This document shows, piece after piece, positions 1 through 13,571 of a DNA stretch of 14,393 bases (positions are counted from its first letter, which is position 1; each line of letters begins with the position of its first letter). This DNA is from an uncultured Leucobacter sp. (GTDB lineage: Bacteria; Actinomycetota; Actinomycetes; Actinomycetales; Microbacteriaceae), in the NCBI GenBank assembly GCA_937872275.1, contig CALMSE010000315.1, positions 1-14,393 on the forward strand. Reading direction: 5' to 3'. Below the pieces are notes generated by a model. The model was not told the origin of the DNA. It was given only the letters and a program-made list of their open reading frames with translations, and made no database searches. The translations under genes and the position numbers were made by a program.

Positions 1-822
1 GTGGCGCCGGGCGGCCTCGCCGCTCGCGACCAGGAGCGCGCTCGCGCCGTCGTTGAGCGAGGAGGCGTTGCCCGCGGTCACGACCGAACCGCCGGCGACG
101 ACGGGCCGCAGGCCCGCGAGCACCTCGAGGGTGGTGTCGGGGCGGGGGCCCTCGTCGACGGAGACCAGGTTCTGCCGGCCCCGGCCGAGATCCACCGTCA
201 CCGGCACGATCTCCCGCTCGAAGCGCCCGGCCTCGATCGCGGCCGCCGCTCGGCGGTGGCTCTCGACGGCGAAGGCGTCGGCGTCTTCGCGCGAGACGCC
301 GTCGACGCGCGCGACCTCCTCCGCGGTCTCGGGCATCGAGAAGGTCGCCTTCTCGCGTTTCAGAAACTCGGGGTTCGTGAAGCGCCAGCCGATGGAGGTG
401 TCGAACTGGGCGCCGGGCTTCGCCCAGGGCCGCGACGGCTTCTCCTGCACCCACGGCGCACGCGTCATCGACTCGACGCCGCCCGCGATCATGAGGTCGG
501 CGTCGCCGGCGCGGATCGCCTGCGAGGCGTTCGAGACGGCCGTCATGCCCGAGGCGCAGAGCCGGTTCACGGTGTAGCCCGGCACGGTGTCGGGCAGGCC
601 GGCGAGCAGCACGGCCATGCGGGCCACGTTGCGGTTGTCCTCGCCCGCCTGGTTCGCGCTGCCGAGGATCACCTCGTCGATGGCGTCGTGCGGCACGCCG
701 GTGCGACGGGCGATCTCCCGGACCACGAGGGCGGCGAGGTCGTCGGGCCGCACGTTCGCGAGGGCGCCGCCGTAGCGGCCGACGGGCGTGCGCACTCCGT
801 CGACGAGATAGGCCTCGGGCAT
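1..822 (-). CDS. pcaF: 3-oxoadipyl-CoA / acetyl-CoA C-acyltransferase (PcaF-type thiolase), 3' end outside window
   Basis: Thiolase that would cleave a 3-oxoacyl-CoA with CoA; in the PcaF subgroup 3-oxoadipyl-CoA gives succinyl-CoA and acetyl-CoA. The first 274 residues are visible and the frame is open at the left edge; the family is about 400 residues, so the C-terminal third with the catalytic His and second Cys lies outside. Seen: N-terminal RTPVGRYGGAL, the block NQAGEDNRNVARM followed by LLAGLP, the nucleophile Cys89 in NRLCASGM, and the GGVESMTRAPW loop. The RYGGAL and NQAGEDNRNVARM blocks are what I associate with PcaF/PaaJ rather than generic FadA thiolases. The ATG is preceded by AGAGAGGT about 8 bases upstream. 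It lies 260 bp downstream of the acyl-CoA dehydrogenase on the same strand and has its own promoter and palindrome, so it probably forms a separate transcript. Thiolase identity is sure; the 3-oxoadipyl substrate is inferred. Confidence 0.9.
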   Translation of the reverse strand, partial: MPEAYLVDGVRTPVGRYGGALANVRPDDLAALVVREIARRTGVPHDAIDEVILGSANQAGEDNRNVARMAVLLAGLPDTVPGYTVNRLCASGMTAVSNASQAIRAGDADLMIAGGVESMTRAPWVQEKPSRPWAKPGAQFDTSIGWRFTNPEFLKREKATFSMPETAEEVARVDGVSREDADAFAVESHRRAAAAIEAGRFEREIVPVTVDLGRGRQNLVSVDEGPRPDTTLEVLAGLRPVVAGGSVVTAGNASSLNDGASALLVASGEAARRH

Positions 823-832
823 CGGTATCGAC

Positions 833-855
833 CTCTCTGTCTGTGTCTGTCTGTT
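833..855. repeat. short CTGT/ACAG-rich tandem repeat in the thiolase leader
   Basis: The plus strand carries an imperfect run of CTGT units interrupted by one GT; on the coding (minus) strand it is a run of ACAG units ending directly at the AGAGAGGT ribosome binding site. It is seen directly. Length variation here would change leader length but not coding frame. No function is known to me; it may simply keep the leader unstructured. Confidence 0.5.
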
Positions 856-935
856 CGCGCCGGTGGCGGTTCGCCCCCCGGCGGCGGGTCTTCCTGCTCG
901 GATGCGGGCGCCTAGACCCGCGCGCGGGCGCGCGA

Positions 936-959
936 ATTAGTAACCGTACGGTCAGTTAT
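936..959. promoter_or_regulatory. TetR-type operator candidate upstream of the thiolase gene
   Basis: A perfect 10-bp palindrome, ACCGTACGGT (943-952), sits inside a 24-bp imperfect dyad with 9 of 12 positions paired. Actinobacterial TetR-family repressors of acyl-CoA and catabolic genes often bind palindromes with ACCG...CGGT cores. On the minus strand it begins about 8 bases downstream of the proposed -10 box, so it would cover the transcription start, a normal place for a repressor site. No TetR gene lies in the window, so the binding protein is unknown. Confidence 0.55.
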
Positions 960-967
960 GCTCTCTC

Positions 968-997
968 AGGATAGACGCACCGGGTGCCGCCTGCCAA
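968..997 (-). promoter_or_regulatory. sigma70-like promoter for the thiolase gene
   Basis: Read on the minus strand, TTGGCA (997-992) and TATCCT (973-968) are separated by 18 bases. The proposed start falls about 7 bases further on, at the edge of the TetR-type palindrome, roughly 140 bases before the thiolase ATG. The -35 box is itself inside a dyad, CTGCCA-AC-TGGCAG (991-1004). This is a prediction from hexamer match and position only. Confidence 0.4.
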
Positions 998-1082
998 CTG
1001 GCAGTGCCCGCGCTCCCCGGAATCCGCATCGCGTGGCGAAGCGACCTTCGTCGCGATTCCCGTCGTCGTCCAGCCGCGCCGC

Positions 1083-2282
1083 TCAGGAGAACGCGGCGAT
1101 GCCGGTGATCTCACGGCCGATGATCAGCGACTGGATGAAGTCCGTGCCCTCGTAGGTGTGCACGACCTCCATGTCGGTGAGGTGCCGCGCGACGTGGTTC
1201 TCGAGCAGCAGCCCGTTCCCTCCGAGCAGATCCCGCGCATCGCGGCAGAGCGCCCGCGAGCGCTGCCCGGTGAACATCTTCGCGAGCGAGGCCTGCTCGT
1301 TCGAGAGCCGACCCTCGTCCTGCAGGGCCGCCGTGCGGAAGCAGAGCAGTTGCATGGCCGTGAGATCCGCGAGCATGTTCGCCAGTTTGTTCTGCACGAG
1401 CTGCGTGGCGGCGATCGGGCGACCGAACTGCACGCGCCGCTGCACGTACTCGGCGGCGATCTCGTAGGCGGCGACCGCGTGGCCGAGCGCCTCCCAGGCG
1501 ACGGTGCTGCGGGTGCGGTTGAGCACCGCGGAGACGTCGCGGAAGGAGGTCGACTCCGCGAGCCGGTTCTCCGCCGGCACGCGCACGCCCGCCAGTCGGA
1601 TGTGGGCCTGCTGGATGGCGCGCTTCGCGATCTTCCCGGTGATGGCCTCGGCCTCGTACCCTTCGGGGTACTCGCCGTCGGCGCTCTTCTCCACGACGAA
1701 GGCCTTCACCTTCCCGTCATCGGTGTCGCGGGCCCAGACGATCACGAGGTCGGCCACATGGCCGAGCCCGATCCACCGCTTCTCCCCGTCGAGCACGTAG
1801 GCGTCGCCCTCGCGCCGCGCCGAAGTCTCGAGGGCGACGGAGTCCGAGCCGTGCTCCGGCTCCGTCAGTGCGAATGCGCCGAGCGCCTCGAGCCTCGCCA
1901 TCCGGGGCAGCCAGCGCTGCTTCTGCTCCTCGCTGCCGAGCAGCGCGATGCTCCCCATCGCGAGCCCCGACTGCACGGCGTTCAGCGTGTTCAGGCTGCC
2001 ATCGCCGCGCGAGAGCTCCATCGCGACGAGCCCGGTCTGCAGCCGAGTGAGTCCGGGGCAGCCGTAGCCCTCGATGGCGGTGCCGACGATGCCGAGCTCG
2101 CGCAGCGAGGGGAGCAGATGGTAGGGGAAATCGGCCCGCTCCCAGTAGTCGTTGATGATGGGGGTGACCTCGGCGTCGACGAAGCCGCGGATCCGGGTGA
2201 TCAGGGCCCTGTCGGCCTCGCCCAGGAAGTCGGAGACCCGGTAGAAGTCGGAGTCGACGGGGTGCAGGGAGAGCTCGCTCAC
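1083..2282 (-). CDS. acyl-CoA dehydrogenase, glutaryl-CoA dehydrogenase-like (probable dicarboxylyl-CoA dehydrogenase)
   Basis: FAD-dependent alpha,beta-dehydrogenation of an acyl-CoA, 399 residues, normal length for the family. The GTG start at 2282 overlaps the stop of the upstream CoA-transferase in GTGA, and GAAAGG lies about 9 bases before it, so the two are translationally coupled; the longer open frame upstream is not used. Seen: the flavin/substrate loop FALTEPEHGSD (about 128-138), GEKRWIG (about 157-163), QFGRPIAATQ in the C-terminal helical domain, LLGGNG, and HTYEGTDFIQ with catalytic Glu378 where human glutaryl-CoA dehydrogenase has Glu370. Overall it resembles that enzyme more than straight-chain dehydrogenases. 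The Arg and Ser that in the human enzyme (Arg94, Ser98) lie near the gamma-carboxylate are Asn98 and Ala102 here, so glutaryl-CoA is not assured. Neighbours suggest adipyl-CoA or another dicarboxylyl-CoA. Family sure; substrate inferred. Confidence 0.92.
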   Translation of the reverse strand: MSELSLHPVDSDFYRVSDFLGEADRALITRIRGFVDAEVTPIINDYWERADFPYHLLPSLRELGIVGTAIEGYGCPGLTRLQTGLVAMELSRGDGSLNTLNAVQSGLAMGSIALLGSEEQKQRWLPRMARLEALGAFALTEPEHGSDSVALETSARREGDAYVLDGEKRWIGLGHVADLVIVWARDTDDGKVKAFVVEKSADGEYPEGYEAEAITGKIAKRAIQQAHIRLAGVRVPAENRLAESTSFRDVSAVLNRTRSTVAWEALGHAVAAYEIAAEYVQRRVQFGRPIAATQLVQNKLANMLADLTAMQLLCFRTAALQDEGRLSNEQASLAKMFTGQRSRALCRDARDLLGGNGLLLENHVARHLTDMEVVHTYEGTDFIQSLIIGREITGIAAFS

Positions 2283-3529
2283 TGTGCGGAACCTTTCGGG
2301 GTGAGGGCGGAGTGGGATGCGGACGGCACGGTCGTCGCCCCGGCGTGCTCGGGGCCGGTGTCGAGAGAACGCAGCCAGGCGCGGATCGCCTCGCCGTCCT
2401 GGTCGAGAAAGGGGGGCGCGGCGGCGTAGCAGGCCGGGGTCTCCGAGAATCGGATCGGGTTTCTGATCGTCGGGAGCGCCCGTTCGCCCTCGCCCACGGT
2501 GACGACGGGGTCGAGCCCGATCCGCCTCGCGAAGTCGATGCCGCCGGCGACGGTCAGGATCGGTGCGCAGGGCACTCCCGCCGCGCTGAACTCGCGGAAC
2601 CACTCGTCTGCGCTGCGGGTCGTGAGCCGCTCGACGAGCAGGGGGCGCAGCGCATCGCGGTTCACGCTGCGCGCCGCGTTCGACGAGAATCGCGTATCGG
2701 CGAGCAGGCGGTCGAGGCCGGCCGCTCCGCAGAAGGCGCGGAACTGCGCGTCATTCCCCACGGCGAGGATCAGGGTCCCCTCTGCGGTCGGGAAGGGAGC
2801 ATAGGGGTAGATGCTCGGATGGTCGTTGCCGAGGCGCACGGGTGACTGCCCGGTCAGCAGGTACCCGCCCGTCTGGTTGACGAGCCCGGAGAGCGCGGAG
2901 GCCATGAGGTTCAGCTCGATCCGCTGCCCCTGTCCGGTGCGCAGGCGATGGTAGAGCGCCGTGACGATGGCGATGCCGGTGTGCAGACCGGTGATCACGT
3001 CGAAGATCGCCACGCCGGACCGGAAGCCCTCCGTGCTCGGCGATCCGGTGAGGTCCATCAGGCCTGACAACGCCTGCACGAGGAGGTCGTACCCGGGCAG
3101 GGCCGCAGTCTCGGCGGTGCCGAAGCCGGTGATCGACGCGTAGATCACCTCGGGGTTGTCTGCGATCACCGAGCCGTAGTCGAGGCCGAACCGTCGGAGC
3201 CCACCGGGCTTGAAATTCTCGACCACCACGTCGGCCCGCGCGGCGAGGCGGTGGGCGAGCCGCAGATCTTCCGGGTCGCTGAAATCGAGTACCACTGACT
3301 GCTTATTGCGGTTCACGGAGAGGAAGTAGGCGGATTCCCCGTGGTACTCGGGCGGGGTCCAGGAGCGGGTCTCGTCGCCCAGCGGGCTCTCGACCTTGAT
3401 CACGGTGGCGCCGAGGTCGGCGAGGAGCATCGTGCAGTACGGCGCGGCGAGCACCCGGCCGAAATCCGCGATGAGCAGGCCCGCGAAGGGGCCTTGCCCG
3501 GCGGCATCGGAGTCGAGATGGGGAAACAT
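2279..3529 (-). CDS. family III (CaiB/BaiF) CoA-transferase, probable dicarboxylate activation
   Basis: Transfers CoA from a donor thioester such as succinyl-CoA to a carboxylic acid; here probably to the dicarboxylate made by the neighbouring oxidation genes. 416 residues, normal for the family. The ATG at 3529 has GAGGAG just upstream, and the protein then begins the usual family N-terminus (FAGLLIADFGRVLAAPYCTMLLADLG). Other marks: NRNKQSVVLDF (about 73-83), VVENFKPGG (about 102-110), and PGYDLLVQALSGLM with Asp148 at the position of the catalytic aspartate that forms the acyl-anhydride intermediate in formyl-CoA transferase. The last 25 or so residues are a low-complexity tail. The stop overlaps the start of the acyl-CoA dehydrogenase gene. 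A family III CoA-transferase beside a glutaryl-CoA dehydrogenase homologue and a LysR gene recalls bacterial glutarate catabolism (GcdG/GcdH/GcdR). The true acyl acceptor cannot be read from sequence. Confidence 0.9.
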   Translation of the reverse strand: MFPHLDSDAAGQGPFAGLLIADFGRVLAAPYCTMLLADLGATVIKVESPLGDETRSWTPPEYHGESAYFLSVNRNKQSVVLDFSDPEDLRLAHRLAARADVVVENFKPGGLRRFGLDYGSVIADNPEVIYASITGFGTAETAALPGYDLLVQALSGLMDLTGSPSTEGFRSGVAIFDVITGLHTGIAIVTALYHRLRTGQGQRIELNLMASALSGLVNQTGGYLLTGQSPVRLGNDHPSIYPYAPFPTAEGTLILAVGNDAQFRAFCGAAGLDRLLADTRFSSNAARSVNRDALRPLLVERLTTRSADEWFREFSAAGVPCAPILTVAGGIDFARRIGLDPVVTVGEGERALPTIRNPIRFSETPACYAAAPPFLDQDGEAIRAWLRSLDTGPEHAGATTVPSASHSALTPKGSAQ

Positions 3530-3548
3530 GGAGCTCCTCGGTAGGCGA

Positions 3549-3568
3549 CGGCGCTCGGAGGAGCGCCG
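3549..3568. promoter_or_regulatory. perfect 8-bp inverted repeat in the CoA-transferase leader
   Basis: CGGCGCTC and GAGCGCCG flank a 4-base GGAG loop about 20 bases upstream of the CoA-transferase start codon. In the mRNA it would form a stable hairpin just before the ribosome binding site; in DNA it could be an operator. Seen directly; function unknown. The rest of the 214-bp divergent region (3530-3743) holds the LysR-side repeats. Confidence 0.4.
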
Positions 3569-3699
3569 CTTGCGCCCCACCAGACTTGCAGGGCGGCTCG
3601 GGCGAGTCCAATACCGAAAGCCCGTCGGATTGATACCCGTGCTGCCCCCAGGGGAGCAGGGGAATGCGATCGGCAGGGCGGCACCCATCTTCACCGCGA

Positions 3700-3740
3700 G
3701 ATAATCCGGTGCTGATAATTCTTCGATATGCAATAATCCG
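3700..3740. promoter_or_regulatory. divergent promoter/operator region between lysR-type gene and CoA-transferase
   Basis: A locally AT-rich stretch just before the LysR start. ATAATCCG occurs twice (3701-3708 and 3733-3740), 32 bp apart, about three helical turns, with a third ATAAT at 3715-3719. GATAAT (3714-3719) and AATAAT (3732-3737) are plausible -10 boxes for the LysR gene. LysR-type regulators usually bind such divergent regions and control both their own gene and the opposite operon. I found no clean T-N11-A dyad that I would call with confidence. Confidence 0.45.
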
Positions 3741-3743
3741 CGC

Positions 3744-4670
3744 ATGGACATCCAGCAACTGCGCGCCTTCCTCGCGGTCGCCGAGGAACTGCACTTCGGC
3801 CGCGCCGCGGAGCGCCTGCACCTGGCGCAGCCCCCCGTCAGCCGAAGCGTGCAGCAGCTGGAACGAGAACTCGGTGCCCGGCTCTTCGAGCGCAGCACCC
3901 GGAAGGTGACGCTCACCTCGGTCGGCGAGACGCTCGTCGAGCCTGCGCGGGAGGCGATCGAGGCCTTCGAACGCGTGCGGTGGGTCGCGCAAGCGGCGGG
4001 AACCGGGGAGATCGGCCACGTTCGCCTCGCCTACGCCGGCGCGTCCTCCAACGTGATGGTGGGCCGGCTCGCACGGGCGGTGAAGCAGGGACACCCGGGC
4101 ATTCAGCTCGAACTGCTGAGCCAGCACTTCGCCCAGCCGGCGATCCAGTCGCTGAGCAAGGGCGACATCGATATCGCCCTCGGCAGGTGGGATCATATTC
4201 CCAACGGCGTCTGCACGCGGGTGGTCGCGGTCGAGGAGCTCGTGGTCGCCGTACCCGAGACCCACCGCCTGGCGGATCGACAGAGCGTCTCCATCGTCGA
4301 GTTCGCCGGGGAACCCTTCGTCTCCCTTCCGCCGCAGACCGGCACGCTGCTGCTCGAACGGTTGCACCTGATGACGCGCGAGCGAGGATTCAACGTCGAA
4401 GTGGTGCAGTACGCTCCCGACTCGTGGACGGTCATGTCGCTCGTCTCCGCCGAGGTCGGCTGTTCGCTGACGCTCTCCTCGGTGATCGCCAGCATCGCCG
4501 ACCCCCACCTGAGATTCTTGCGCTTGTCAGACGCGGCCCCGCCGGTCGAACTGAGGATGGCGTGGCGGGGCGACAGCGACGACCGCGCCCTGCACGCTGT
4601 GCTCCGCATCTCGGAGACGGTGCTGCCGACTCCGGCGAATGATGCGGTTTCGTCAACAATCCGGGGCTGA
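3744..4670 (+). CDS. LysR-family transcriptional regulator
   Basis: DNA-binding regulator of 308 residues, typical of the family. Residues 1-60 form the winged helix-turn-helix (LRAFLAVAEELHFGRAAERLHLAQ, then PPVSRSVQQLERELGARLFER), followed by the linker helix and a periplasmic-binding-protein-like effector domain from about residue 90 (GHVRLAYAGASSN) to the C-terminus. The ATG is fixed by the conserved N-terminus (MDIQQLRAFLAV); no convincing ribosome binding site precedes it, and a -10-like AATAAT only 7 bases upstream raises the possibility of a leaderless or very short-leader mRNA. It is divergent from the CoA-transferase/acyl-CoA dehydrogenase pair, which is its most likely target, and lies 73 bp upstream of the alcohol dehydrogenase gene on the same strand. 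The inducer is probably a pathway acid or CoA ester (inference). Confidence 0.93.
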   Translation: MDIQQLRAFLAVAEELHFGRAAERLHLAQPPVSRSVQQLERELGARLFERSTRKVTLTSVGETLVEPAREAIEAFERVRWVAQAAGTGEIGHVRLAYAGASSNVMVGRLARAVKQGHPGIQLELLSQHFAQPAIQSLSKGDIDIALGRWDHIPNGVCTRVVAVEELVVAVPETHRLADRQSVSIVEFAGEPFVSLPPQTGTLLLERLHLMTRERGFNVEVVQYAPDSWTVMSLVSAEVGCSLTLSSVIASIADPHLRFLRLSDAAPPVELRMAWRGDSDDRALHAVLRISETVLPTPANDAVSSTIRG

Positions 4671-4683
4671 TCCGGTATTGGAT

Positions 4684-4695
4684 CGGATCGATCCG
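4684..4695. promoter_or_regulatory. perfect 12-bp palindrome upstream of the alcohol dehydrogenase gene
   Basis: CGGATCGATCCG lies in the 73-bp gap between the LysR stop and the alcohol dehydrogenase start, embedded in other GATC-rich half-sites. Its position suits an operator, but GC-rich palindromes of this length can occur by chance. The only support is symmetry and location. Confidence 0.3.
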
Positions 4696-4743
4696 GGATG
4701 AGAGCGTTGGACGCGAACCCTGACCGAGGCCCGGAGGACGACC

Positions 4744-5841
4744 ATGCGAGCATTTGCGATCCTTGAAGACGCGGGCGAGGTGACGGAGATCGAGGTGCCG
4801 TGCCCCGTGCCGACCGGTACCGAGGTGGTGCTGCGGGTGGTGCGATCCGGCGTCTGCCACACCGATACCCACCTGCGCGACGGCTACTACGACCTCGGTG
4901 CGCGAGGGCGCATGCGGCTCACCGACCGGGGGGTCGTCTACCCGATCGTGCTCGGTCACGAGGTCGTCGGCGTGGTCGAGGCCGTCGGCCCCGGCGTCGC
5001 CGAGGTGCGACCGGGGGATCGTCGGCTCATCTACCCCTGGATCGGCGAGGGCGAATGCGAAGCCTGCCGGGCCGGCGAGGAGAATCTCTGCGTCGCCCCG
5101 AAGAACCTCGGCGTCGCGGAGCACGGGGGCTACGCAGAGTCCATCCGCGTACCCCACCCGCGATACCTCGTCGACATCGAGGGACTCGACGAGAGCTGGG
5201 CCGCGACCCTCGCCTGCTCCGGGCTGACCGCGTACGGTGCGGTGCGGAAGGCGCTGCCGCTCGCGCCCGACGACCCGATCGTGGTCATCGGCGCGGGCGG
5301 CGTCGGGCTGACCGCGATCGCGACGCTCCGCGCCCTCGGGCATCGGGCGATCGTCGCGGTCGACCTGCAGCAGCGCAATCTCGAGCTCGCCCGGGAACTG
5401 GGTGCGACCGAGCTGGTCTCCGCGGATCAGGCTGATCTCACCGGCGCGATCATCGACGGTGCGGGCGGCCCGGTCGCGGCGGTGATCGACTTCGTCAACA
5501 GCTCGGCGACCTCCCGTGCCGGCTTCGACCTGCTCCGCAAGGGCGGCAGCATGATTCAGGTCGGCCTCTTCGGCGGCGAGCTCGTCATTCCTACGGCGCT
5601 GCTCGCGCTGAAGACGCTCACCGTGCGGGGCAGCTTCGTCGGTACGCTCGCAGACCTTCGCGAGCTCGTGGAGCTCGCGAAGCAGGGCGGTTTGCCGCAC
5701 ATTCCGATCGTCGACGACGCCCTCACGGCGGAAGCGGTGCAGAGCTCGCTCGATCGTCTGGTCGTCGGGGGCGTGCCGGGGCGGATCGTGCTCCGTGGAC
5801 GCGAGGATGCGGGAACGGACGAACCCGGAGAGGGCGAATGA
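4744..5841 (+). CDS. chnD: zinc-dependent alcohol dehydrogenase, ChnD/CpnD-like (omega-hydroxy acid dehydrogenase)
   Basis: Medium-chain NAD(P)-dependent alcohol dehydrogenase, 365 residues, expected to oxidise 6-hydroxyhexanoate (or 5-hydroxyvalerate) to the semialdehyde. Seen: catalytic-zinc ligands Cys38 (GVCHTD), His72-Glu73 (GHE) and Cys158; coenzyme motif GAGGVG (183-188) with Asp207 ending the second beta strand, which favours NAD+. HLRDGYYDLG, LTDRGV and VPHPRYLVDIEGLD closely match my memory of Acinetobacter ChnD, the basis for the symbol. The structural-zinc lobe reads GEGECEACRAGEENLC: Cys105, Cys108 and Cys116 are present but the first ligand, normally Cys in WIGCG, is Glu102. The C-terminus has a short acidic tail beyond the usual end. 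Start chosen from GGAGG 7 bases upstream. Its stop overlaps the aldehyde dehydrogenase start in ATGA. Family sure; substrate from context and resemblance. Confidence 0.9.
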   Translation: MRAFAILEDAGEVTEIEVPCPVPTGTEVVLRVVRSGVCHTDTHLRDGYYDLGARGRMRLTDRGVVYPIVLGHEVVGVVEAVGPGVAEVRPGDRRLIYPWIGEGECEACRAGEENLCVAPKNLGVAEHGGYAESIRVPHPRYLVDIEGLDESWAATLACSGLTAYGAVRKALPLAPDDPIVVIGAGGVGLTAIATLRALGHRAIVAVDLQQRNLELARELGATELVSADQADLTGAIIDGAGGPVAAVIDFVNSSATSRAGFDLLRKGGSMIQVGLFGGELVIPTALLALKTLTVRGSFVGTLADLRELVELAKQGGLPHIPIVDDALTAEAVQSSLDRLVVGGVPGRIVLRGREDAGTDEPGEGE

Positions 5842-7256
5842 CGAACACGAACATGAAACTGAACGCCGGAGCGGACGCGTATCGCACGATCGACCCGATG
5901 ACGGGAGAGACCATTGCCGAGTTTCCGGTCATGGACGACGAGGCGCTGCGCGGGGTCATCACGCGATCCGACACCGCGTATCGATCGTTCCGGCATCTGC
6001 CGCTCGCCGAGCGCACCGAGATGCTGGCCCGCGCCGCCGAACTGCATCTCGAGCGCATCGGCGAGCTCGCGGCGCTGCTCACCATGGAGATGGGCAAACC
6101 GATCGCGCAGGCTCGGAGCGAGGTCGAGCTCGTGGCGTCGATCTACCGCTACTACGCCGAACGCGCCGCGGTCTTCCTCGCCGACGAGCCGCTCGACATC
6201 GCGGGCGAGGGCACCGCTCTCGTGAGCACCGAGCCGATCGGCCCGCTGCTCGGCGTCATGCCCTGGAATTTCCCGTACTACCAAGTCGCCCGCTTCGCGG
6301 CGCCGAACCTCGCGCTCGGCAACACGATCATCGTGAAGCACGCGAGGAACTGCCCGCAGTCGGCCCTCGCGATCGAGCGCCTGCTGCTCGACGCGGGGCT
6401 GCCGAGCGGGGCCTACATCAACGCGTTCGCGAGTGCGGGCCAGGTCGCGGAGATCATCGCCGATCCGCGGATCCGAGGTGTCTCGTTGACCGGCTCCGAG
6501 CGGGCGGGCTCTGCCGTGGCCGAGGTCGCGGGCCGGCACCTGAAGAAGGCGGTGCTCGAGCTCGGCGGATCCGACCCCTTCATCGTGCTCGCAGACGCCG
6601 ACCTCGACGCGGCGGTCGCCGCTGCGGTGCGCGGACGCGTTTCGAACGCGGGCCAGGCGTGCACCGCGTCGAAGCGGATGATCGTGGTCAACGCCGTGTA
6701 CGACGAGTTCTCGCGCAGATTCATCGAAGCGCTGACGGCGATCGTGCCGGGGGACCCGACCGACCCCGACACCGCCCTCGGCCCGCTCTCGTCGGCCTCG
6801 GCGGGGGAGGAGCTCGACGAGATCGTGCGGGAAGCCGTCGACAAGGGAGCGACGCTGCACCTCGCGGAGAGCGCCGGCCGATCAGGCGCCTTCTACCCTC
6901 CGGGAGTGCTGAGCGATGTGGTGCCCGGCATGCGGGCGTACCGCGAAGAGCTCTTCGGCCCGACTGCCGTGCTGCACCGCGTCGCGAACATCGATGAGGC
7001 GATCGAGCTCGCGAACGACTCGCCGTTCGGCCTCGGCAGCAGCGTGTTCACGCGCGATGAGCGGCTCGCGGACGAGATCGCACGGCGGCTCGAGGTCGGC
7101 ATGGTGTGGATCAACGGGTCGAGCCGCAGCGCCCCGGACCTCCCGTTCGGCGGGGTGAAGGCGTCGGGCGTCGGACGCGAGCTCGCGCGGTTCGGCATCG
7201 ACGAATTCGCGAACAAGAAGCTCATCCGGTCCCCACTGGCCTCGGCGGCCGGGTAG
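5838..7256 (+). CDS. chnE: NAD(P)-dependent aldehyde dehydrogenase, semialdehyde type (ChnE/CpnE-like)
   Basis: Oxidises an aldehyde to a carboxylic acid; here probably 6-oxohexanoate to adipate (or 5-oxovalerate to glutarate). 472 residues, within the range of the succinate-semialdehyde dehydrogenase-like branch. Seen: MPWNFP with Asn144, cofactor-region Lys167 (IIVKHARNCP), Rossmann loop SLTGSERAGSAVAE (about 216-229), general base Glu241 in LELGGSDP, and catalytic Cys275 in NAGQACTASKR; the C-terminal PFGGVKASGVGRE is also typical. The NAGQAC and KHA motifs match dicarboxylate-semialdehyde enzymes better than betaine-aldehyde types. The ATG overlaps the alcohol dehydrogenase stop by 4 bases and has GGAGAGGG upstream; a second Met at codon 6 has no such site. 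It is coupled to the preceding gene, as expected for two successive steps. Family and catalytic residues sure; exact substrate inferred from neighbours. Confidence 0.92.
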   Translation: MTNTNMKLNAGADAYRTIDPMTGETIAEFPVMDDEALRGVITRSDTAYRSFRHLPLAERTEMLARAAELHLERIGELAALLTMEMGKPIAQARSEVELVASIYRYYAERAAVFLADEPLDIAGEGTALVSTEPIGPLLGVMPWNFPYYQVARFAAPNLALGNTIIVKHARNCPQSALAIERLLLDAGLPSGAYINAFASAGQVAEIIADPRIRGVSLTGSERAGSAVAEVAGRHLKKAVLELGGSDPFIVLADADLDAAVAAAVRGRVSNAGQACTASKRMIVVNAVYDEFSRRFIEALTAIVPGDPTDPDTALGPLSSASAGEELDEIVREAVDKGATLHLAESAGRSGAFYPPGVLSDVVPGMRAYREELFGPTAVLHRVANIDEAIELANDSPFGLGSSVFTRDERLADEIARRLEVGMVWINGSSRSAPDLPFGGVKASGVGRELARFGIDEFANKKLIRSPLASAAG

Positions 7257-7381
7257 GGAGCCGGCCGGGCGAGAGACTGATCGGCTCAGGGCCGCAGGAG
7301 GTGCCGGAGGGCGCGACGGGAGACCGCCGCGCCCGGTTCGGCGTGCCCGGATCCATCCGTTCTGCAGGGCCGGTCAGTCGG

Positions 7382-7400
7382 GTGTTCCACTTCGGAACAC
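7382..7400. promoter_or_regulatory. perfect 7-bp inverted repeat upstream of the esterase-monooxygenase operon
   Basis: GTGTTCC-ACTTC-GGAACAC is a perfect dyad about 110 bp upstream of the esterase start; a related half-site GTGTTCT follows at 7411-7417. It is the clearest structure in the 254-bp gap 7257-7510. The distance is typical for an activator site. The nearby GAF/Fis-type regulator (10237-11955) is the natural candidate ligand, but nothing in the sequence proves the pairing. I see no strong sigma70 promoter in this gap. Confidence 0.5.
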
Positions 7401-7510
7401 TCGGCTTCGCGTGTTCTCGTGTGGTCTGGTGAGTGCGACCGCGACTCGCGCCGGTTCGGCGACGAGCGACGGCGGTACGAGTGAAGACGACGCGAACAAA
7501 GGAGTATCGG

Positions 7511-8419
7511 ATGTCAGACGCGACCCCGCAGGGCCTCATCGAGAGCAGGCTGCGCGACCTCTATCTGGATTGGTCGAACCTCATGGCCACCAAAGAGCTC
7601 GACATGCGGCTCTTCCGCAGCATCTTCGACGAGTGGCACCAGCCGACGGTCGAGCCGGAGGGCGTGAGCTACAAGGAGGAGACGGTCGGCGGCGTGCCCG
7701 GCATCTGGGCGTTCCCCGAGGGGGCCGACCGCTCGAAGGTGATGATCTACACGCACGGCGGCGGCTTCGCCGTCGGCTCGGCCTCGAGCCACCGCAAGCT
7801 GGCGGCGCACGTCGCGAAGGCCGTCGGCGCCACGGCGTTCGTGCTCGACTACCGACTGGCTCCGGAGCACCCGCACCCGGCGCAGGTGGAGGACGGCGTC
7901 GCGGTCTTCCACGCCCTGGTGGAGCGCGGAATCGCGCCCGAGAGCATCACCACGGTCGGCGACTCGGCCGGCGGCAACCTCGCCATCGGCATCGCCCTCG
8001 CGCTGCGCGACGAAGGCGCCCCCCTGCCCGGTGCCGTGGTCGTCTTCTCGCCCTGGCTCGATATGGAGAACGCGGGCGAGACGCTCGTCTCCAATGACGC
8101 GACCGACGCCCTCATCACCGTGCCCCTGCTGGAGGGTATGATCGCGGGTCGGCTCGGCGGCGGGACGAGCCCCGATGATCCCCTCGCGAACCCCCTCTAC
8201 GCCGATCTCACCGGCTTCCCGCGCCTCTACATCAATGCCGGAAGCCTCGAGTCGCTGCTCGACAACGCCACGCGCCTCCACGAGCGCGCGAGCGCAGCGG
8301 GCGTAGACGTGGTGCTCAACATCACCCCGGGTCAGCAGCATGTCTACCCGTTCCTGGCCGGCCGCGATCCCGCCGTCGACGCCGAACTGCGGGCCATCGG
8401 CGCCTGGCTCGGCGCCTGA
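7511..8419 (+). CDS. alpha/beta hydrolase, HSL-family esterase / lactone hydrolase (ChnC-like role)
   Basis: Esterase of 302 residues in the hormone-sensitive-lipase family, expected to open the lactone (or split the ester) made by the monooxygenase encoded next. Seen: oxyanion-hole motif HGGGFAVG starting at His82, nucleophile elbow GDSAGG with Ser152, YRLAPEHPHPA after the second strand, and His277 in QQHVYPF. At the usual catalytic aspartate position the chain reads SLESLLDNA, giving Glu247 rather than Asp; Asp251 is the second acidic residue of the motif. The ATG at 7511 has AAAGGAG 8 bases upstream; the open frame extends upstream but the extra residues are unlike the family. No signal peptide, so cytoplasmic. 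It is 45 bp from the monooxygenase and surely in the same operon, like lactonase/monooxygenase pairs in cyclic-ketone and acetone pathways. Substrate inferred. Confidence 0.9.
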   Translation: MSDATPQGLIESRLRDLYLDWSNLMATKELDMRLFRSIFDEWHQPTVEPEGVSYKEETVGGVPGIWAFPEGADRSKVMIYTHGGGFAVGSASSHRKLAAHVAKAVGATAFVLDYRLAPEHPHPAQVEDGVAVFHALVERGIAPESITTVGDSAGGNLAIGIALALRDEGAPLPGAVVVFSPWLDMENAGETLVSNDATDALITVPLLEGMIAGRLGGGTSPDDPLANPLYADLTGFPRLYINAGSLESLLDNATRLHERASAAGVDVVLNITPGQQHVYPFLAGRDPAVDAELRAIGAWLGA

Positions 8420-8464
8420 GCCATTCCCTCATTCCACCATCGAGAACCAGCAGGAGCTGCCGCT

Positions 8465-10084
8465 ATGACTTCATCATCCACCTCCCTCGACTTCGACGCC
8501 GTCGTGATCGGCGCCGGCTTCGGGGGCATCTACCAGGCGCACATGCTGCGCGACCGGCTCGGGCTGCGGGTGCGCGGCTTCGAGAAGGGCGACGGGTTCG
8601 GAGGGACCTGGTACTGGAACCGGTACCCGGGAGCCATGTCCGACACCGAGAGCCCCTACTACCGCTACTCCTTCGACGACGAGGTGCTGCAGGAGGCGGA
8701 GTGGACGAGGAAGTACCTCGACCAGCCCGACATCCTGCGCTATCTCGAGGGCGTCGTCGACCGCTACGACCTGCGCAAGGACTTCCGGCTCGGCACCGAG
8801 GTGACCTCGCTCGTCTTCGACGAGGAGGGCGAGTTCTGGCGCATCGGCACCTCGACCGGCGAGTCGGTCACCGCGCGCTACGTGGTGACCGCGCTCGGCC
8901 TGCTCGCCGCGACGAACATCCCCGACATCCCCGGCATCGACTCCTTCGCGGGGCGGCTGGTGCACACCGCAGAGTGGCCCGATGATCTCGACATCACGGG
9001 CAAGCGGGTCGGCGTGATCGGCACCGGGTCGACCGGCACCCAGTTCATCGTGGCCGCAGCCGAGCAGGCCGGCCGGCTCACCGTGTTCCAGCGCAACGCG
9101 CAGTACAGCGTGCCCTCGGGCAACGGCCCGGTCGGGCCGGGCGAGGTCGAGGAGGTCAAGGCGCGGTTCCCGGAGATCTGGCAGCAGGTTCGCGGGTCGG
9201 GGGTGGCCTTCGGCTTCGAGGAATCGGCCGTCGCGGCGACCGAGGTGAGCGAGGAGGAGCGCGAGCGGGTCTTCCAGGCGGCGTGGGAGCGCGGCAACGG
9301 CTTCTACTTCATGTTCGGCACCTTCAACGACATCGCCGTCAGCCCGGAGGCGAACGAGGCCGCCGCGGCATTCATCCGCCGCAAGATAGCGGAGACCGTG
9401 AAGGATCCCGAGACCGCGCGGCTGCTCACTCCCACGCTGCCGTACGCCAAGAGACCGCTCTGCAACCACAACTACTACGAGGTCTACAATCGCGAGAACG
9501 TCGAGCTCGTGTCGATACTGGAGAATCCGATCGTGGAGATCACGCCGAAGGGGGTGCGCACTGCGGACGGCGTGGAGCGGGAGCTCGACGTCATCGTGCT
9601 CGCCACCGGCTTCGACGCGGTCGACGGAAACTACCGTCGCATGGACCTGCGCGGGCGCGGCGGGGTCAGTGTCGACGAGCACTGGGCCGACGGCCCGTCG
9701 AGCTACCTCGGTGTCACCACGGCCGGGTTCCCGAACCTGTTCATGATCCTCGGCCCGAACGGCCCGTTCACGAACCTCGTACCGAGCATCGAGGTGCAGG
9801 TCGAGTTCATCACGGAGATGGTGGCCGAGGCCGAACGGCGGCAGGCCGTGATCGAGGCCTCGCGGCAGGCGGAGGAGGAGTGGACGGAGACCTGCAAGGC
9901 CATCGCTGACTTCACCCTCTTCCCGAAGACCGACTCGTGGATCTTCGGGGCGAACATCCCGGGGAAGAAGAACACGGTGATGTTCTACCTCGGGGGCCTC
10001 GGCAACTACCGGGGCATCCTCTCCGAGGTGCAGCAGGAGGGCTTCCGGGGCTTCGAGCTCAGCGGCGCGACGGTTCCGGCCTGA
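8465..10084 (+). CDS. chnB: Baeyer-Villiger monooxygenase, cyclohexanone monooxygenase-like
   Basis: Flavin- and NADPH-dependent type I Baeyer-Villiger monooxygenase, 539 residues (Acinetobacter CHMO is 543), inserting oxygen beside a ketone to give an ester or lactone. Seen: FAD Rossmann motif GAGFGG (16-21), GTWYWNRYPGA with Asp60 near the flavin, the class fingerprint FAGRLVHTAEWP (161-172), the NADPH Rossmann motif GTGSTG (186-191), Arg330 in YAKRPLC at the arginine that stabilises the peroxyflavin, ATGFDAVDGNY (380-390), GPNGPFTNL (430-438) and SWIFGANIPGKK (491-502) with Trp492. Many of these match CHMO from memory nearly residue for residue. The CHMO pocket positions Leu143, Phe432, Thr433, Leu435 and Ser438 are retained as Leu146, Phe435, Thr436, Leu438 and Ser441, favouring CHMO over cyclopentanone monooxygenase. 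Start supported by AGGAG 8 bases upstream. A strong hairpin follows the stop. Family sure; cyclohexanone as native substrate likely, not proved. Confidence 0.94.
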   Translation: MTSSSTSLDFDAVVIGAGFGGIYQAHMLRDRLGLRVRGFEKGDGFGGTWYWNRYPGAMSDTESPYYRYSFDDEVLQEAEWTRKYLDQPDILRYLEGVVDRYDLRKDFRLGTEVTSLVFDEEGEFWRIGTSTGESVTARYVVTALGLLAATNIPDIPGIDSFAGRLVHTAEWPDDLDITGKRVGVIGTGSTGTQFIVAAAEQAGRLTVFQRNAQYSVPSGNGPVGPGEVEEVKARFPEIWQQVRGSGVAFGFEESAVAATEVSEEERERVFQAAWERGNGFYFMFGTFNDIAVSPEANEAAAAFIRRKIAETVKDPETARLLTPTLPYAKRPLCNHNYYEVYNRENVELVSILENPIVEITPKGVRTADGVERELDVIVLATGFDAVDGNYRRMDLRGRGGVSVDEHWADGPSSYLGVTTAGFPNLFMILGPNGPFTNLVPSIEVQVEFITEMVAEAERRQAVIEASRQAEEEWTETCKAIADFTLFPKTDSWIFGANIPGKKNTVMFYLGGLGNYRGILSEVQQEGFRGFELSGATVPA

Positions 10085-10087
10085 GTC

Positions 10088-10127
10088 GGGCGGCGGGGGC
10101 GGGCGATGAACCCCGCCCCCGCCGCCC
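10088..10127. terminator. strong GC hairpin ending the esterase-monooxygenase operon
   Basis: A 16-bp perfect inverted repeat (10088-10103 with 10112-10127, all G and C) around an 8-base loop begins 3 bases after the monooxygenase stop. There is no U-tract after it, as is common for actinobacterial hairpin terminators. It separates the catabolic operon from the regulator gene. Confidence 0.7.
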
Positions 10128-10236: not shown

Positions 10237-11955
10237 ATGAGCTCCGAATCCTATTCAGCGGCCGAGGTGCGGCGCGCCCGTGAGCGCTTGCTCGAGGCGG
10301 GGATCGTCTCGAGCAGGGCCGAGCGCATCCCTGCCGCGGTATCGCCCCTGATCGAGCGCAGCTGGCGCAGGTCGGTCTTCGAGGGGGTCGGGGGGACCGC
10401 GCCGGCCTCGGCGTCGCCGCGCTTCCTCGCCTCCGAGCCGAGCGTCGAGGCTCCGTTGAACCGGGCCGCCTCGGCCGTTCTGGAGCGCTGGGGTGATGCG
10501 CTCGCCGACATGAAGGCCGCGCTCTTCGTCAGCGACCGCTCCGGTCGCATCATCTCCCGGCGAGTGGGCGACGCCGCGCATGCGCGCAGCCTCGACCGGG
10601 CCGATGCCGCCGAGGGCTTCGACTTCTCGGAGTCCGCGCTGGGCACCAACGGCCTCGGCACGGTGCTCGAAGAGCGCTCCGCGGTGCTGGTTCGCGGCGC
10701 CGAGCACTTCGACGATTCGCTGCAGTCGCTCGCCTGCGCAGGGGCCCCGATCCGGGATCCGCTCTCCAAGCGGGTGATCGGGAGCGTCGCGCTCGCGGTG
10801 CCGGTCGATGCCTCGAACTCGATGATGATGACCGTTGCGAAACGGGCGGCCGACGACTTCCGCACGGTGATGCTCGAGGTGCTCCCCGACGAGCTCAGGC
10901 TGCTGCTGGCCCGCTTCGTGCGGGGGGAGGTCGACCGTCCGGCGATCGCCGTCGGTCGCGCCGGCGTCCTCGCGAACACCGGCGTGCTCCCTTGGCTGTC
11001 GGTGGAGCGGCAGATCTCGCTGTGGGACGAGCTGCAGGCCCACGAGTGGAGCCGGGGCGAGTGCTCCGTGCTCATCGCGGGTAGGCAGGGCTCGGCCCGG
11101 CGGATCCTCAACCACTCCGGCGAGGGCGTGTATCTGGTGGAGCTGGAGGAGGCCCCTCGCGGCGTGGCGGAGGCGCCCGGCGCCTCCGAACTGCTGCTGC
11201 GGCTGGACGCCGTGGCGCACGGCAGCGGCTGCCTGGCGCTCAGCGGCTCCGAGTGCGCCGGGGGTCGCGACCTCGGCCGCGAGTGGCTGCGGCACCGCAC
11301 GGGGGAGGAACCGCTCGTGTTCGAGGCGGGGGCCGATGGGCCGGCTGAGCTCCTCGCGCGGTCGCACCGGGCGCTCGCCTCCGGGTGCTCGGTCCTCGTG
11401 ACCGGGCTCGAGGCGCTCGGCGCCGAGCAGCACGAGCCGCTGAGCGCGCTGATCCGTTCCGTCCACCCGGCGGGCACGGCGAGGCTCGTGCTCTGCCTCT
11501 CCGAAGAGGTCGACTCCGGGCTGCGATGGCTCGTGGCGGAGGAGGTGCCGGTTTGGGGGATGCCGAGTCTCGGGGATGACCCGGATCGGGTGGTCCTGAT
11601 CGCTCAGCGCTTCGCGCGGGAGAACGGCGTGGTGCTCTCGCCGGCGCTCCTGCAGGCGCTCGCCAGATGGGACTGGCCGGGAGGGAAGGACGAACTCTGG
11701 GGGCTGCTCACGGCGGCGGCGGCGGCGCACCCTCGAAGTTTCCTCGACGTCGATGCGCTGCCCGACGAGATCCGATCGCGCGCGCGTCGGCTCTACGGCA
11801 TCGCGGCCTCGGAGTATCGGGCGATTCGCGCCGCGCTGCAGGAGGCGGGCGGCAACCGCTCACGGGCGGCTGAGTCGCTGGGCATCGGGCGCACGACGCT
11901 CTACCGGAAGCTGCGCGCCTACGGGCTGGACGGCGACTCGGCCCTGTCGGCGTGA
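10237..11955 (+). CDS. AcoR-type regulator: GAF domain, degenerate AAA+ region, Fis-type helix-turn-helix
   Basis: Transcriptional regulator of 572 residues with the AcoR/bacterial enhancer-binding architecture. Seen: N-terminal RSWRRS motif (41-46), a GAF-like sensor domain about 70-215 including ALFVSDRSGRIISR and SALGTNGLGT, a central region about 300-510, and a C-terminal Fis-type helix-turn-helix from about 526 (GGNRSRAAESLGIGRTTLYR, then KLRAYGL). The central region lines up with NtrC-type AAA+ domains at its end (WDWPGGKDELWGLL for the usual WPGNVREL) but lacks a Walker A GxxGxGK, a Walker B Asp-Glu and GAFTGA, so it should not bind or hydrolyse ATP normally nor act on sigma54. That fits actinobacteria, which generally lack sigma54. 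The ATG follows ACGAGGT; an in-frame extension upstream is a shadow over the monooxygenase gene. It probably senses a ketone or alcohol and activates the neighbouring operons, perhaps through 7382-7400 (inference). Confidence 0.88.
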   Translation: MSSESYSAAEVRRARERLLEAGIVSSRAERIPAAVSPLIERSWRRSVFEGVGGTAPASASPRFLASEPSVEAPLNRAASAVLERWGDALADMKAALFVSDRSGRIISRRVGDAAHARSLDRADAAEGFDFSESALGTNGLGTVLEERSAVLVRGAEHFDDSLQSLACAGAPIRDPLSKRVIGSVALAVPVDASNSMMMTVAKRAADDFRTVMLEVLPDELRLLLARFVRGEVDRPAIAVGRAGVLANTGVLPWLSVERQISLWDELQAHEWSRGECSVLIAGRQGSARRILNHSGEGVYLVELEEAPRGVAEAPGASELLLRLDAVAHGSGCLALSGSECAGGRDLGREWLRHRTGEEPLVFEAGADGPAELLARSHRALASGCSVLVTGLEALGAEQHEPLSALIRSVHPAGTARLVLCLSEEVDSGLRWLVAEEVPVWGMPSLGDDPDRVVLIAQRFARENGVVLSPALLQALARWDWPGGKDELWGLLTAAAAAHPRSFLDVDALPDEIRSRARRLYGIAASEYRAIRAALQEAGGNRSRAAESLGIGRTTLYRKLRAYGLDGDSALSA

Positions 11956-12224
11956 AGAGAGCGCCGCTCCGAATAGCGGAATCCGAACAATTGCGCAATG
12001 GGTGCGGGGTGGCCCTGGATTCTGTGATTTAATGACTGAATGTCCGGTAAGTAATAGCGCTTGCGATGACTTGCTCCTCGGTTTCCTATGCGGCGACCGA
12101 ACGTTCGCCCGGCCCGGAACGGCCTCCGAGCGGCCCTCAGGGGCAGCAGTTCGCCGTGAGTCCCTCCCCCCCCCCAACCCCGTGTGCGCCGAGCCGGCCG
12201 GAGTGCACGAACAACGGAGTTCAC
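11956..12224. promoter_or_regulatory. transporter leader region with palindromes and a 10-C tract
   Basis: This 269-bp stretch has no gene. It holds a 10-bp palindrome ATTGCGCAAT (11990-11999), a comparatively AT-rich segment around 12020-12055 likely to contain the promoter, a second 10-bp palindrome CGAACGTTCG (12098-12107), and a homopolymer of ten C residues (12166-12175) about 50 bp before the transporter ATG. A short weak hairpin (CCGCT/AGCGG, 11964-11979) follows the regulator stop. I cannot assign -35 and -10 boxes with confidence. Confidence 0.4.
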
Positions 12225-13571
12225 ATGGCTGATACGGCAATCGATCCCATCGCGCTGCGGCGCGAACAGCGACGCGTGCTCGCGGGCACGGTCGTCGGCA
12301 CCACCATCGAGTGGTACGACTTCTTCATCTACGCGCAGGCTGCGGGCGTGGTGCTCGCGACGCTCTTCTTCGCGCCGGCGGGCGAGACCGTGGCGCAGAT
12401 CGTGGCGTGGGCCTCGCTCGGCATCTCGTTCCTCTTCCGGCCGCTCGGCGCCGTGGTCGCCGGGCATCTCGGCGACCGCATCGGGCGCAAGCGGATGCTC
12501 GTGTTCACCCTGATCATGATGGGTATCTCGACCGCGCTCATCGGCGTGCTGCCGACCTACGCGGCGATCGGCATCGCCGCGCCGATCCTCCTCATCCTGC
12601 TGCGCATCCTGCAGGGCTTCTCGGCCGGCGGCGAGTGGGGAGGCGCCGCGCTGATGTCGGTCGAGCACGCGCCCGCGGGCAAGCGCGGCTTCTTCGGCGC
12701 CTACCCGCAGATCGGCGTACCGGCGGGCATGATCCTCGCCACGGCGACCATGTGGATCCTCACCTCGGTGCTCACCCCGGAGCAGTTCGAGGAGTGGGGC
12801 TGGCGGGTCCCGTTCCTCTTCTCGATCGTGCTGATCCTCGTGGGCTACCTGATCCGCCGCGCCGTCGAGGAGTCGCCGGTGTTCAAGGAGCTGCAGGAGC
12901 GCAAGGGCGAGTCCGCGGCGCCGTTGAAGACGCTCTTCAAGAGGAACACCAAGGAGGTGGTGCTGGCGGCGCTCATCTTCATCGCCAACAACGCCGCCGG
13001 CTATCTGCTGATCGCCTTCTTCTCGGCCTACGCCACTCGGCCCGTCGAGGCGGGCGGTCTCGGCCTCGAGCGCCCGCCCGTGCTGCTCGCCACCTCGCTC
13101 GCCGCCATCGGCTGGCTCGTCTTCACGCTCTACGGCGGCATCGTCTCGGACAGGATCGGGCGCAAGAAGACCTTCCAGATCGGCTACGCGCTGCTCGGCA
13201 TCTGGGCCATCCCCATGTGGTTCCTGATCGACTCGGGCAACCTCTTCCTGTACTTCCTCGCCCTGTTCCTGCTCACGGTGGGCCTCGGCCTGTCGTACGG
13301 CCCGCAGGCGGCGCTGTACGCCGAGATGTTCCCGGCCGACATCCGCTACTCGGGCGTGTCGATCGGCTACGCGATCGGCGCGATCCTGGGCGGGGCCTTC
13401 GCCCCGATGATCGCCGAGCTGGTCTTCGGCGCCACGGGGCAGTCGTGGACGATCGGCCTCTACATCCTCGGCGTCACGATCATCTCGTTCGTCGCGGTCT
13501 CCCTCGTGAAGGAGCGGAGGGATCAGCCGCTGAACACCACGACCGTCGAGATCCACGGGTCGGCGAGGTAG
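12225..13571 (+). CDS. MFS transporter, metabolite:H+ symporter (MHS) family
   Basis: Inner-membrane proton-coupled uptake carrier of 448 residues with about 12 predicted membrane spans. Seen: GTTIEWYDFFIYAQA at the end of a short cytoplasmic N-terminus, which is a hallmark of the MHS branch (ShiA, ProP, KgtP, citrate carriers); loop 2-3 motif GHLGDRIGRKRM; RILQGFSAGGEWGGA in span 4; a central loop rich in charged residues (VFKELQERKGES); and the repeated SDRIGRKK motif between spans 8 and 9. The start at 12225 has CGGAG 7 bases upstream and gives the normal N-terminus; the frame stays open upstream without family resemblance. It follows the regulator gene on the same strand but has its own 269-bp leader. 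MHS carriers mostly take organic acids, so a dicarboxylate or hydroxy acid of the neighbouring pathway is a reasonable but unproved cargo. A large hairpin follows the stop. Confidence 0.92.
   Translation: MADTAIDPIALRREQRRVLAGTVVGTTIEWYDFFIYAQAAGVVLATLFFAPAGETVAQIVAWASLGISFLFRPLGAVVAGHLGDRIGRKRMLVFTLIMMGISTALIGVLPTYAAIGIAAPILLILLRILQGFSAGGEWGGAALMSVEHAPAGKRGFFGAYPQIGVPAGMILATATMWILTSVLTPEQFEEWGWRVPFLFSIVLILVGYLIRRAVEESPVFKELQERKGESAAPLKTLFKRNTKEVVLAALIFIANNAAGYLLIAFFSAYATRPVEAGGLGLERPPVLLATSLAAIGWLVFTLYGGIVSDRIGRKKTFQIGYALLGIWAIPMWFLIDSGNLFLYFLALFLLTVGLGLSYGPQAALYAEMFPADIRYSGVSIGYAIGAILGGAFAPMIAELVFGATGQSWTIGLYILGVTIISFVAVSLVKERRDQPLNTTTVEIHGSAR

Follow-up and report, generated by a model that had tools for sequence, protein, structure and literature searches.

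The 14,393-bp stretch analysed here (the window) makes up the whole of contig G000:C315 in a Leucobacter metagenome-assembled genome (MAG; 2.57 Mb, 346 contigs, 76.6% complete). It carries a gene cluster predicted to oxidise a cyclic ketone, most likely cyclohexanone, among genes of a phenylacetate (paa) locus. We consider it probable that this cluster is an acquired, horizontally spread module, plugged into the resident paa beta-oxidation genes at approximately positions 985 to 12205. The module comprises genes for a CoA-transferase, an acyl-CoA dehydrogenase (ACAD), a LysR-type regulator, four oxidation enzymes (Baeyer-Villiger monooxygenase, BVMO; esterase; alcohol dehydrogenase, ADH; aldehyde dehydrogenase, ALDH) and a second regulator of Fis type. 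It is flanked by the gene for a PaaJ-type thiolase and by genes for an MFS transporter and an E2 acyltransferase.

The thiolase was searched against 54 genomes of the genus (E<=1e-60). A match was present in 36 of these, this genome included, with 22 others at 78-94% identity; the weaker matches (53-59%) are probably paralogues. Ten of the 22 loci, with thiolases 80-94% identical, were retrieved as 19.9-kb stretches. The thiolase was followed by a hydratase and a 3-hydroxyacyl-CoA dehydrogenase (HADH) in all ten and then by PaaZ in nine. The window's MFS gene was found in eight, adjoining the thiolase in seven and at a distance of approximately 6 kb in L149; nine contained the E2 gene. The exceptions were L144, whose stretch contained no PaaZ, MFS or E2 gene, and L141, which contained no MFS gene. 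CoA-transferase, ACAD, LysR, ADH, esterase, BVMO and second regulator gave no match at E<=1e-12 in the ten stretches, and ALDH gave a 34% match in one. Since paa synteny is kept in the relatives and the intervening genes are absent there, the block of approximately 11 kb (985-12205) is judged to be an insertion into the paa locus, between paaJ and the MFS/E2 genes. Synteny likewise identifies the thiolase as a putative genus-native PaaJ-type gene of that locus, outside the ketone cluster. A sequence-only reading had combined oxidation, CoA activation and beta-oxidation in one locus; CoA-transferase and ACAD do belong to the module, but the PcaF-like thiolase that it had counted in the ketone cluster is native to paa.

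The junctions were located by DNA alignment. Alignment with the nearest relative (L141) ran up to 843 and again from 933 to 984, stopping within the paaJ promoter region; the L141 counterpart of a -35-like hexamer at 992-997 was matched by eye only. Homology to a cluster of Microbacterium ginsengisoli began at 1058 and ended at 11933, and paa-locus homology to several relatives resumed at 12206. The two junction stretches shared no direct repeat of more than 9 bases (8-10 bases searched). A mobile-element signature at the junctions was considered and was not supported, there being no long direct repeat and, within the window, no tRNA and no Rfam family at gathering threshold.

As the window is a whole contig, the region left of position 1 was approached through the relatives and through a second contig of the same genome, C116 (5,279 bp). 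C116 encodes PaaZ (1012 bits against a cut-off of 563), HADH and, truncated at the right-hand contig edge, a hydratase; the hydratase and HADH that follow the thiolase in the relatives are those on C116. The longest contig in the match tables was 20,268 bp for both the window BVMO (P0001) and the C116 PaaZ (P0121), which leaves 596 bp (20,268-14,393-5,279) between window and C116. The same points were 545-584 bp apart in seven relatives, namely those with the hydratase aligned from its first residue. C116 would thus join the window directly. It had been suggested that the missing hydratase and HADH may lie beyond the left edge, and this is very probably so, given that C116 carries both beside paaZ. 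The cyclohexanol dehydrogenase that was expected there too is not part of the module: no short-chain dehydrogenase/reductase (SDR) was among the open reading frames (ORFs) called in the window, and several relatives, M. ginsengisoli included, have one. C116 had at one point been taken as part of the ketone cluster; it was reassigned to the paa locus as PaaZ stands beside its HADH.

Relatives of the inserted module were found outside the genus. In M. ginsengisoli DSM 18659 (NZ_JYIY01000066.1) identities were 81% for BVMO, 78% for esterase, 83-84% for ACAD, 81% for LysR, 74% for ALDH, 73% for CoA-transferase, 71% for ADH and 53% for the second regulator. This cluster has its own thiolase (52% identical to that of the window), hydratase, HADH and SDR. 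Approximately 3 kb away lies a gene for a cyclohexylamine oxidase homologue, which scored 886 bits against 4i58. Cyclohexylamine oxidase is described as converting cyclohexylamine into cyclohexanone in the available part of PMC3608611. In both M. ginsengisoli and Microcella alkalica (G412) a hydratase/HADH pair stands between ADH and ALDH, at the point where the two window genes overlap by 4 bp; no thiolase match was found within approximately 12 kb downstream of the ACAD in Microcella alkalica. Neither the hydratase/HADH pair nor an own thiolase is present within the window insert. A search for PaaZ found none in M. ginsengisoli (best matches 28-31%, to ALDHs) or in Microcella alkalica (nothing at E<=1e-60); it was present in G613 and G398. 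G613, which belongs to a different family in the order, carries a complete, self-contained cluster and paa elsewhere. Strict complementarity, with own hydratase and HADH only where paa is absent, was therefore rejected. The BVMO was detected in 4 of 398 genomes of the family (E<=1e-200) and 3 of 396 of the order (E<=1e-190), both counts including this genome, and the docked arrangement in 1 of the 54 genus genomes (E<=1e-150). In G143 (L110:9228-11684), from another genus of the family, genes for an ACAD and a PcaF-type thiolase, each at 68% identity, stand side by side; this pair is free-standing, with no BVMO match in 19.9 kb.

Eleven genes were called in the window from ORFs and codon-position G+C and named from NCBIfam, Pfam and PDB searches (Table 1). 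The seven enzyme types previously named within 10 kb were all recovered as ORFs with strong family matches; these were open and of high third-position G+C, as expected of real genes in a G+C-rich genome. The LysR and Fis-type regulators, the MFS transporter and the E2 acyltransferase were additional to those. For the thiolase, the CoA-transferase and the ALDH, the NCBIfam models that name a substrate all scored under their curated cut-offs, so these proteins were placed in families, and the substrates proposed for them come from context. The ACAD start overlaps the CoA-transferase stop by 4 bp, as does the ALDH start the ADH stop, as in tight operons. The Fis-type regulator has a Fis helix-turn-helix, no recognisable sigma-54 AAA+ core and only a weak AAA lid match.

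Table 1. Features of the window, with coordinates, strand and the evidence used
Feature	Position	Strand	Evidence
PaaJ-type 3-oxoadipyl-CoA thiolase, first 274 residues, C-terminus past contig edge	1..822	-	best model 3-oxoadipyl-CoA thiolase; 94% in nearest relative; synteny
paaJ promoter-like element: TTGGCA 997-992, TATCCT 973-968, palindromic PaaR-like operator core ACCGTACGGT 943-952	943..997	-	
Left junction of insert	985..1057	.	alignment with nearest relative and M. ginsengisoli
ACAD, glutaryl-CoA dehydrogenase (GCDH)/ACX4 branch, 399 aa, GTG start, proposed adipyl-CoA dehydrogenase	1083..2282	-	
Family III CoA-transferase, 416 aa, proposed succinyl-CoA:adipate CoA-transferase	2279..3529	-	best model succinate-glutarate CoA-transferase
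LysR-type regulator, divergent from CoA-transferase	3744..4670	+	81% to M. ginsengisoli
Zinc ADH, proposed 6-hydroxyhexanoate dehydrogenase	4744..5841	+	
Semialdehyde-type ALDH, proposed 6-oxohexanoate dehydrogenase	5838..7256	+	
HSL-type esterase, proposed caprolactone hydrolase	7511..8419	+	78% to M. ginsengisoli
Cyclohexanone monooxygenase (CHMO)-type BVMO	8465..10084	+	69% to TmCHMO
Fis-type regulator, DhaR/AcoR-like	10237..11955	+	53% to M. ginsengisoli
Right junction of insert	11956..12205	.	DNA homology
MFS metabolite/H+ symporter, native to paa locus	12225..13571	+	80-84% in 8/10 relatives, adjoins paaJ in 7
2-oxoacid dehydrogenase E2 acyltransferase, partial, native flank	13637..14392	-	present in 9/10 relatives

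Over 99% of its length the window BVMO shared 69% identity with Thermocrispum municipale CHMO (TmCHMO, P0046), and it scored 851 bits against 5m0z in the PDB search. Residues 161-172 read FAGRLVHTAEWP, in agreement with FxGxxxHxxxW(P/D), the type I BVMO fingerprint. By fingerprint and full-length similarity the protein is predicted to belong to the CHMO clade. BVMO, lactone hydrolase, ADH and semialdehyde dehydrogenase occur together in the window, as in chn-type clusters, and the earlier assignment of the first four steps to a chn/cpn-like route from cyclic ketone to dicarboxylate stands. A second BVMO, 44% identical to that of the window, was noted on contig C268 of the same genome (L121), accompanied by genes for a zinc ADH, an SDR and a LysR regulator. 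Elsewhere in the genome (G000:C176:20501-21829, L122), a flavin amine oxidase that shares 54% identity with the cyclohexylamine oxidase homologue of M. ginsengisoli adjoins an APC permease (60%) and an SDR (35%); this oxidase could supply cyclic ketone to the pathway.

In the proposed pathway the module stands between paaJ/hydratase/HADH/paaZ on one side and, on the other, the MFS/E2 genes, which are their usual neighbours. BVMO would convert cyclohexanone into caprolactone, the esterase caprolactone into 6-hydroxyhexanoate, and ADH and ALDH 6-hydroxyhexanoate through 6-oxohexanoate into adipate. Adipyl-CoA would then be formed by the CoA-transferase and oxidised by the ACAD to 2,3-dehydroadipyl-CoA. 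Because the latter is already an intermediate of phenylacetate breakdown, the neighbouring hydratase, HADH and PaaJ of the resident locus could finish the pathway, yielding acetyl-CoA and succinyl-CoA.

The choice between a C6 and a C5 substrate was examined at the ACAD and CoA-transferase. By the C5 route, cyclopentanone would be converted to glutarate, the CoA-transferase and a true GCDH would give crotonyl-CoA, and the thiolase would cleave acetoacetyl-CoA. The best model for the CoA-transferase, succinate-glutarate CoA-transferase, agrees with this although the score was under cut-off (331 of 750 bits), and the ACAD falls within the GCDH branch, its nearest solved relatives being plant ACX4 and GCDHs. 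A LysR gene beside CoA-transferase and ACAD genes also resembles the gcdR-gcdH-gcdG arrangement. In the alignment to human GCDH (1sir numbering), the window ACAD keeps the equivalents of Tyr369-Glu370 (HTYEGT, for NTYEGT), in which Glu370, with Tyr369, is catalytic in GCDH. Glu87, Arg94 and Ser95, which presumably form the carboxylate-binding site of GCDH, are replaced by Ser, Asn and Thr. Human and Thermus GCDH have Glu, Arg and Ser at this site, the Thermus enzyme keeping Tyr369/Glu370 too, and plant ACX4 is without the Arg94-equivalent arginine. The replaced carboxylate-site residues indicate that the window ACAD is not a canonical GCDH; of the earlier description as GCDH-like, a strict glutaryl-CoA dehydrogenase can be dropped. 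From its context, adipyl-CoA is a better guess at its substrate than glutaryl-CoA. The thiolase moreover is part of the paa locus, which yields C6 products; among solved BVMOs a CHMO is the closest, the references compared including no cyclopentanone monooxygenase; and the M. ginsengisoli cluster is accompanied by a homologue of cyclohexylamine oxidase. Genes annotated as 3-oxoadipyl-CoA thiolase in clusters of Mameliella and Pseudomonas kurunegalensis also support C6. The C5 reading, suggested by the CoA-transferase name, was down-weighted after the active-site comparison and paa synteny and is now regarded as improbable, and the earlier preference for cyclohexanone is retained.

ACADs of the plasmid clusters described below are of another type, 28-32% identical to the window ACAD and not orthologous to it. 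Arg-Ser occupies the Arg94/Ser95 column in the ACADs of L124-L126 and in one of the two ACADs of L127; with identity this low the correspondence of the column is uncertain. Rows fam_L093, L095 and L096, translated in a wrong frame, are excluded from the comparison. In M. ginsengisoli a second ACAD remnant of the Rhodococcus DN22 type (64-67%; L010:7610-8548, about L109:12375-13313) was seen beside the esterase, in two pieces and apparently broken, which suggests that the GCDH/ACX4-type enzyme took over in that lineage.

To see how common compact clusters are, 12 CHMO-type loci (BVMO 55-81% identical) were compared: that of M. ginsengisoli, six that the searches of family and order had yielded, and five on plasmids, picked among 25 of 684 matching plasmid records. 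Two of the 12 (L124, L126) had supplied query proteins. CoA-transferase and ACAD genes were both within 12 kb of the BVMO in six loci, and a seventh (L126) has the CoA-transferase just outside. For M. ginsengisoli (L010) the ACAD counted is the broken second copy, the intact gene lying just beyond the locus edge. Neither gene was present in L157, L162 and L163, and only the CoA-transferase in L123 and L158. A homologue of the Fis-type second regulator accompanies the BVMO in seven loci (L010, L124, L156, L158, L161, L162, L163). Of 78 BVMO loci at lower identity (<=45%), usable flank of 14 kb or more was available for 51; none of these had both genes and three had an esterase. CoA-transferase, ACAD and thiolase are all annotated in the plasmid records of Rhodococcus DN22, P. 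kurunegalensis and Mameliella alba KU6B, and the latter two records name a 3-oxoadipyl-CoA thiolase. Genes for CoA activation and beta-oxidation next to CHMO genes, a combination that the sequence-only reading had contrasted with the separate dca locus of Acinetobacter, thus recur in Microbacterium, Microcella, Rhodococcus, Pseudomonas and Roseobacteraceae. Compact clusters are therefore not new, and only the paa site is special. Among the matches listed from the open-licence literature, no title or abstract opening described a cyclic-ketone cluster inserted at paa, and the part of a 2026 survey of the paa pathway that was examined contains no adipate, cyclohexanone or Baeyer (PMC13186573). 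Docking on paa, known from one case, appears new.

How far the two gene sets work together depends on transcription. An element similar to the promoter-like element of paaJ in the window was seen by eye upstream of paaJ in nine of the ten relatives. The palindrome ACCGTACGGT stands downstream of the -10 in the window and L141, with looser forms, again by eye, in eight more relatives. This operator-like element resembles the ACCG/CGGT-type PaaR operators given in the accessible text of PMC9493321. Promoter and putative PaaR-like operator of paaJ look intact. The CoA-transferase and ACAD genes lie upstream of paaJ on the same strand, and no terminator-like sites were found on the minus strand from 700 to 4800, so their transcripts may extend into paaJ. 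A stronger proposal, which could equally prove right or wrong, is natural pathway grafting: in a hybrid operon, CoA-transferase/ACAD transcription induced by ketone or adipate would continue into paaJ, hydratase and HADH, the module having earlier lost or left behind a hydratase, an HADH and a thiolase of its own. PaaR repression would be by-passed in this way, since its effector phenylacetyl-CoA would be absent on cyclohexanone.

Alternatively, the genes may be neighbours by accident, the ketone module using general fatty-acid beta-oxidation and paa serving phenylacetate only. The promoter-like element and putative operator kept by paaJ are consistent with this, as are three more HADH homologues (35%) in the genome and the single docked case known. 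In the available text of PMC12337976, deletion of psrA in engineered P. taiwanensis with paaYX intact still gave weak growth on adipate; a transposon study of beta-proteobacteria ties adipate growth in Ralstonia to other beta-oxidation genes, with paa unmentioned in the part available (PMC12543098). For Gulosibacter, entry of adipate into general beta-oxidation is suggested (PMC9477822, available part). Against an accident, the CoA-transferase and ACAD genes are co-directional with paaJ and upstream of it, and the insert has neither a hydratase/HADH pair nor a thiolase, unlike related clusters. The same portion of PMC12337976 reports stronger growth of P. taiwanensis on adipate when the paa cluster was opened than with psrA deletion alone, and mutations around the PaaX repressor in all six adipate-evolved lines. 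An accidental neighbourhood is accordingly rated as unlikely, somewhat less so than the C5 route. An assembly or binning chimera, which the 346 contigs and 76.6% completeness of the MAG might invite, is hardly credible: paa-locus genes flank the module on both sides in native order and orientation, so that two false joins would be needed, and proteins of the window and of C116 are listed on contigs of identical size, 20,268 bp.

Several points weigh against a module docked on paa for adipate. Substrates, induction and growth on the ketone are all predictions from sequence. The docking is a single case, in a 77%-complete MAG, and the join to C116 across the 596-bp gap is deduced from contig sizes. 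The thiolase scored 362 of 605 bits, the cut-off of the 3-oxoadipyl-CoA models, as a fragment, so its name rests on synteny; the paa locus is recognised here by its beta-oxidation genes. The best model of the CoA-transferase names glutarate, not adipate; adipyl-CoA is a candidate substrate of an ACAD whose nearest solved relatives are ACX4 and GCDHs; and the insert has no SDR alcohol dehydrogenase. With a promoter and operator that look intact, paaJ could stay repressed absent read-through or a common inducer. The presence of both systems in G613 means that own hydratase and HADH are not simply a paa substitute, and the weak growth of the psrA mutant means that general beta-oxidation can partly stand in for paa.

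The preferred reading, a ketone module docked on paa, would make the window an apparent natural counterpart of the engineered paa route for adipate, with ring-opening genes added. It would be an example of a catabolic module that shrinks and attaches to a resident pathway at a shared intermediate. It offers a natural parts list from cyclohexanone, caprolactone or adipate to central metabolites, including a candidate adipyl-CoA dehydrogenase of unexpected ACAD type, and makes testable what physical linkage adds if the lower pathway already exists elsewhere.

Known systems share parts of this arrangement. The chn clusters (Acinetobacter chnBCDE for cyclohexanol/cyclohexanone; Comamonas cpn for C5) have the same reaction order of BVMO, lactone hydrolase/esterase, ADH and ALDH, whereas the window adds CoA-transferase and ACAD and its lower steps are those of paa. 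The clusters of M. ginsengisoli and Microcella alkalica contain the same genes, mostly at 69-84% protein identity (second regulator 45-53%), with the same CoA-transferase-ACAD/LysR-ADH divergence; unlike the window, both carry their own hydratase and HADH, and M. ginsengisoli also its own thiolase, SDR and cyclohexylamine oxidase homologue. Rhodococcus sp. DN22 p1, P. kurunegalensis and Mameliella alba KU6B pKUB77 likewise unite CHMO-type BVMO, esterase, CoA-transferase, ACAD and thiolase in one region. These plasmid clusters differ from the window in having their own thiolase and hydratase/dehydrogenase-type genes and were not seen at paa. The enzymes of the engineered Pseudomonas route are of the dca type rather than CaiB-type, DcaIJ being a family I CoA-transferase, and that route is without ketone oxidation genes. 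The Mameliella KU6B plasmid cluster is reported for cyclohexanone to adipate, the adjacent beta-oxidation genes being unmentioned in the available part of PMC7206491. In engineered P. putida and P. taiwanensis, dcaAKIJP complements the phenylacetate pathway for growth on adipate via 2,3-didehydroadipyl-CoA, and one construct carried dcaAKIJP at the paaYX locus (PMC12337976, available text). Engineered strain and window are alike in that adipate enters, or in the window would enter, phenylacetate degradation through this intermediate.

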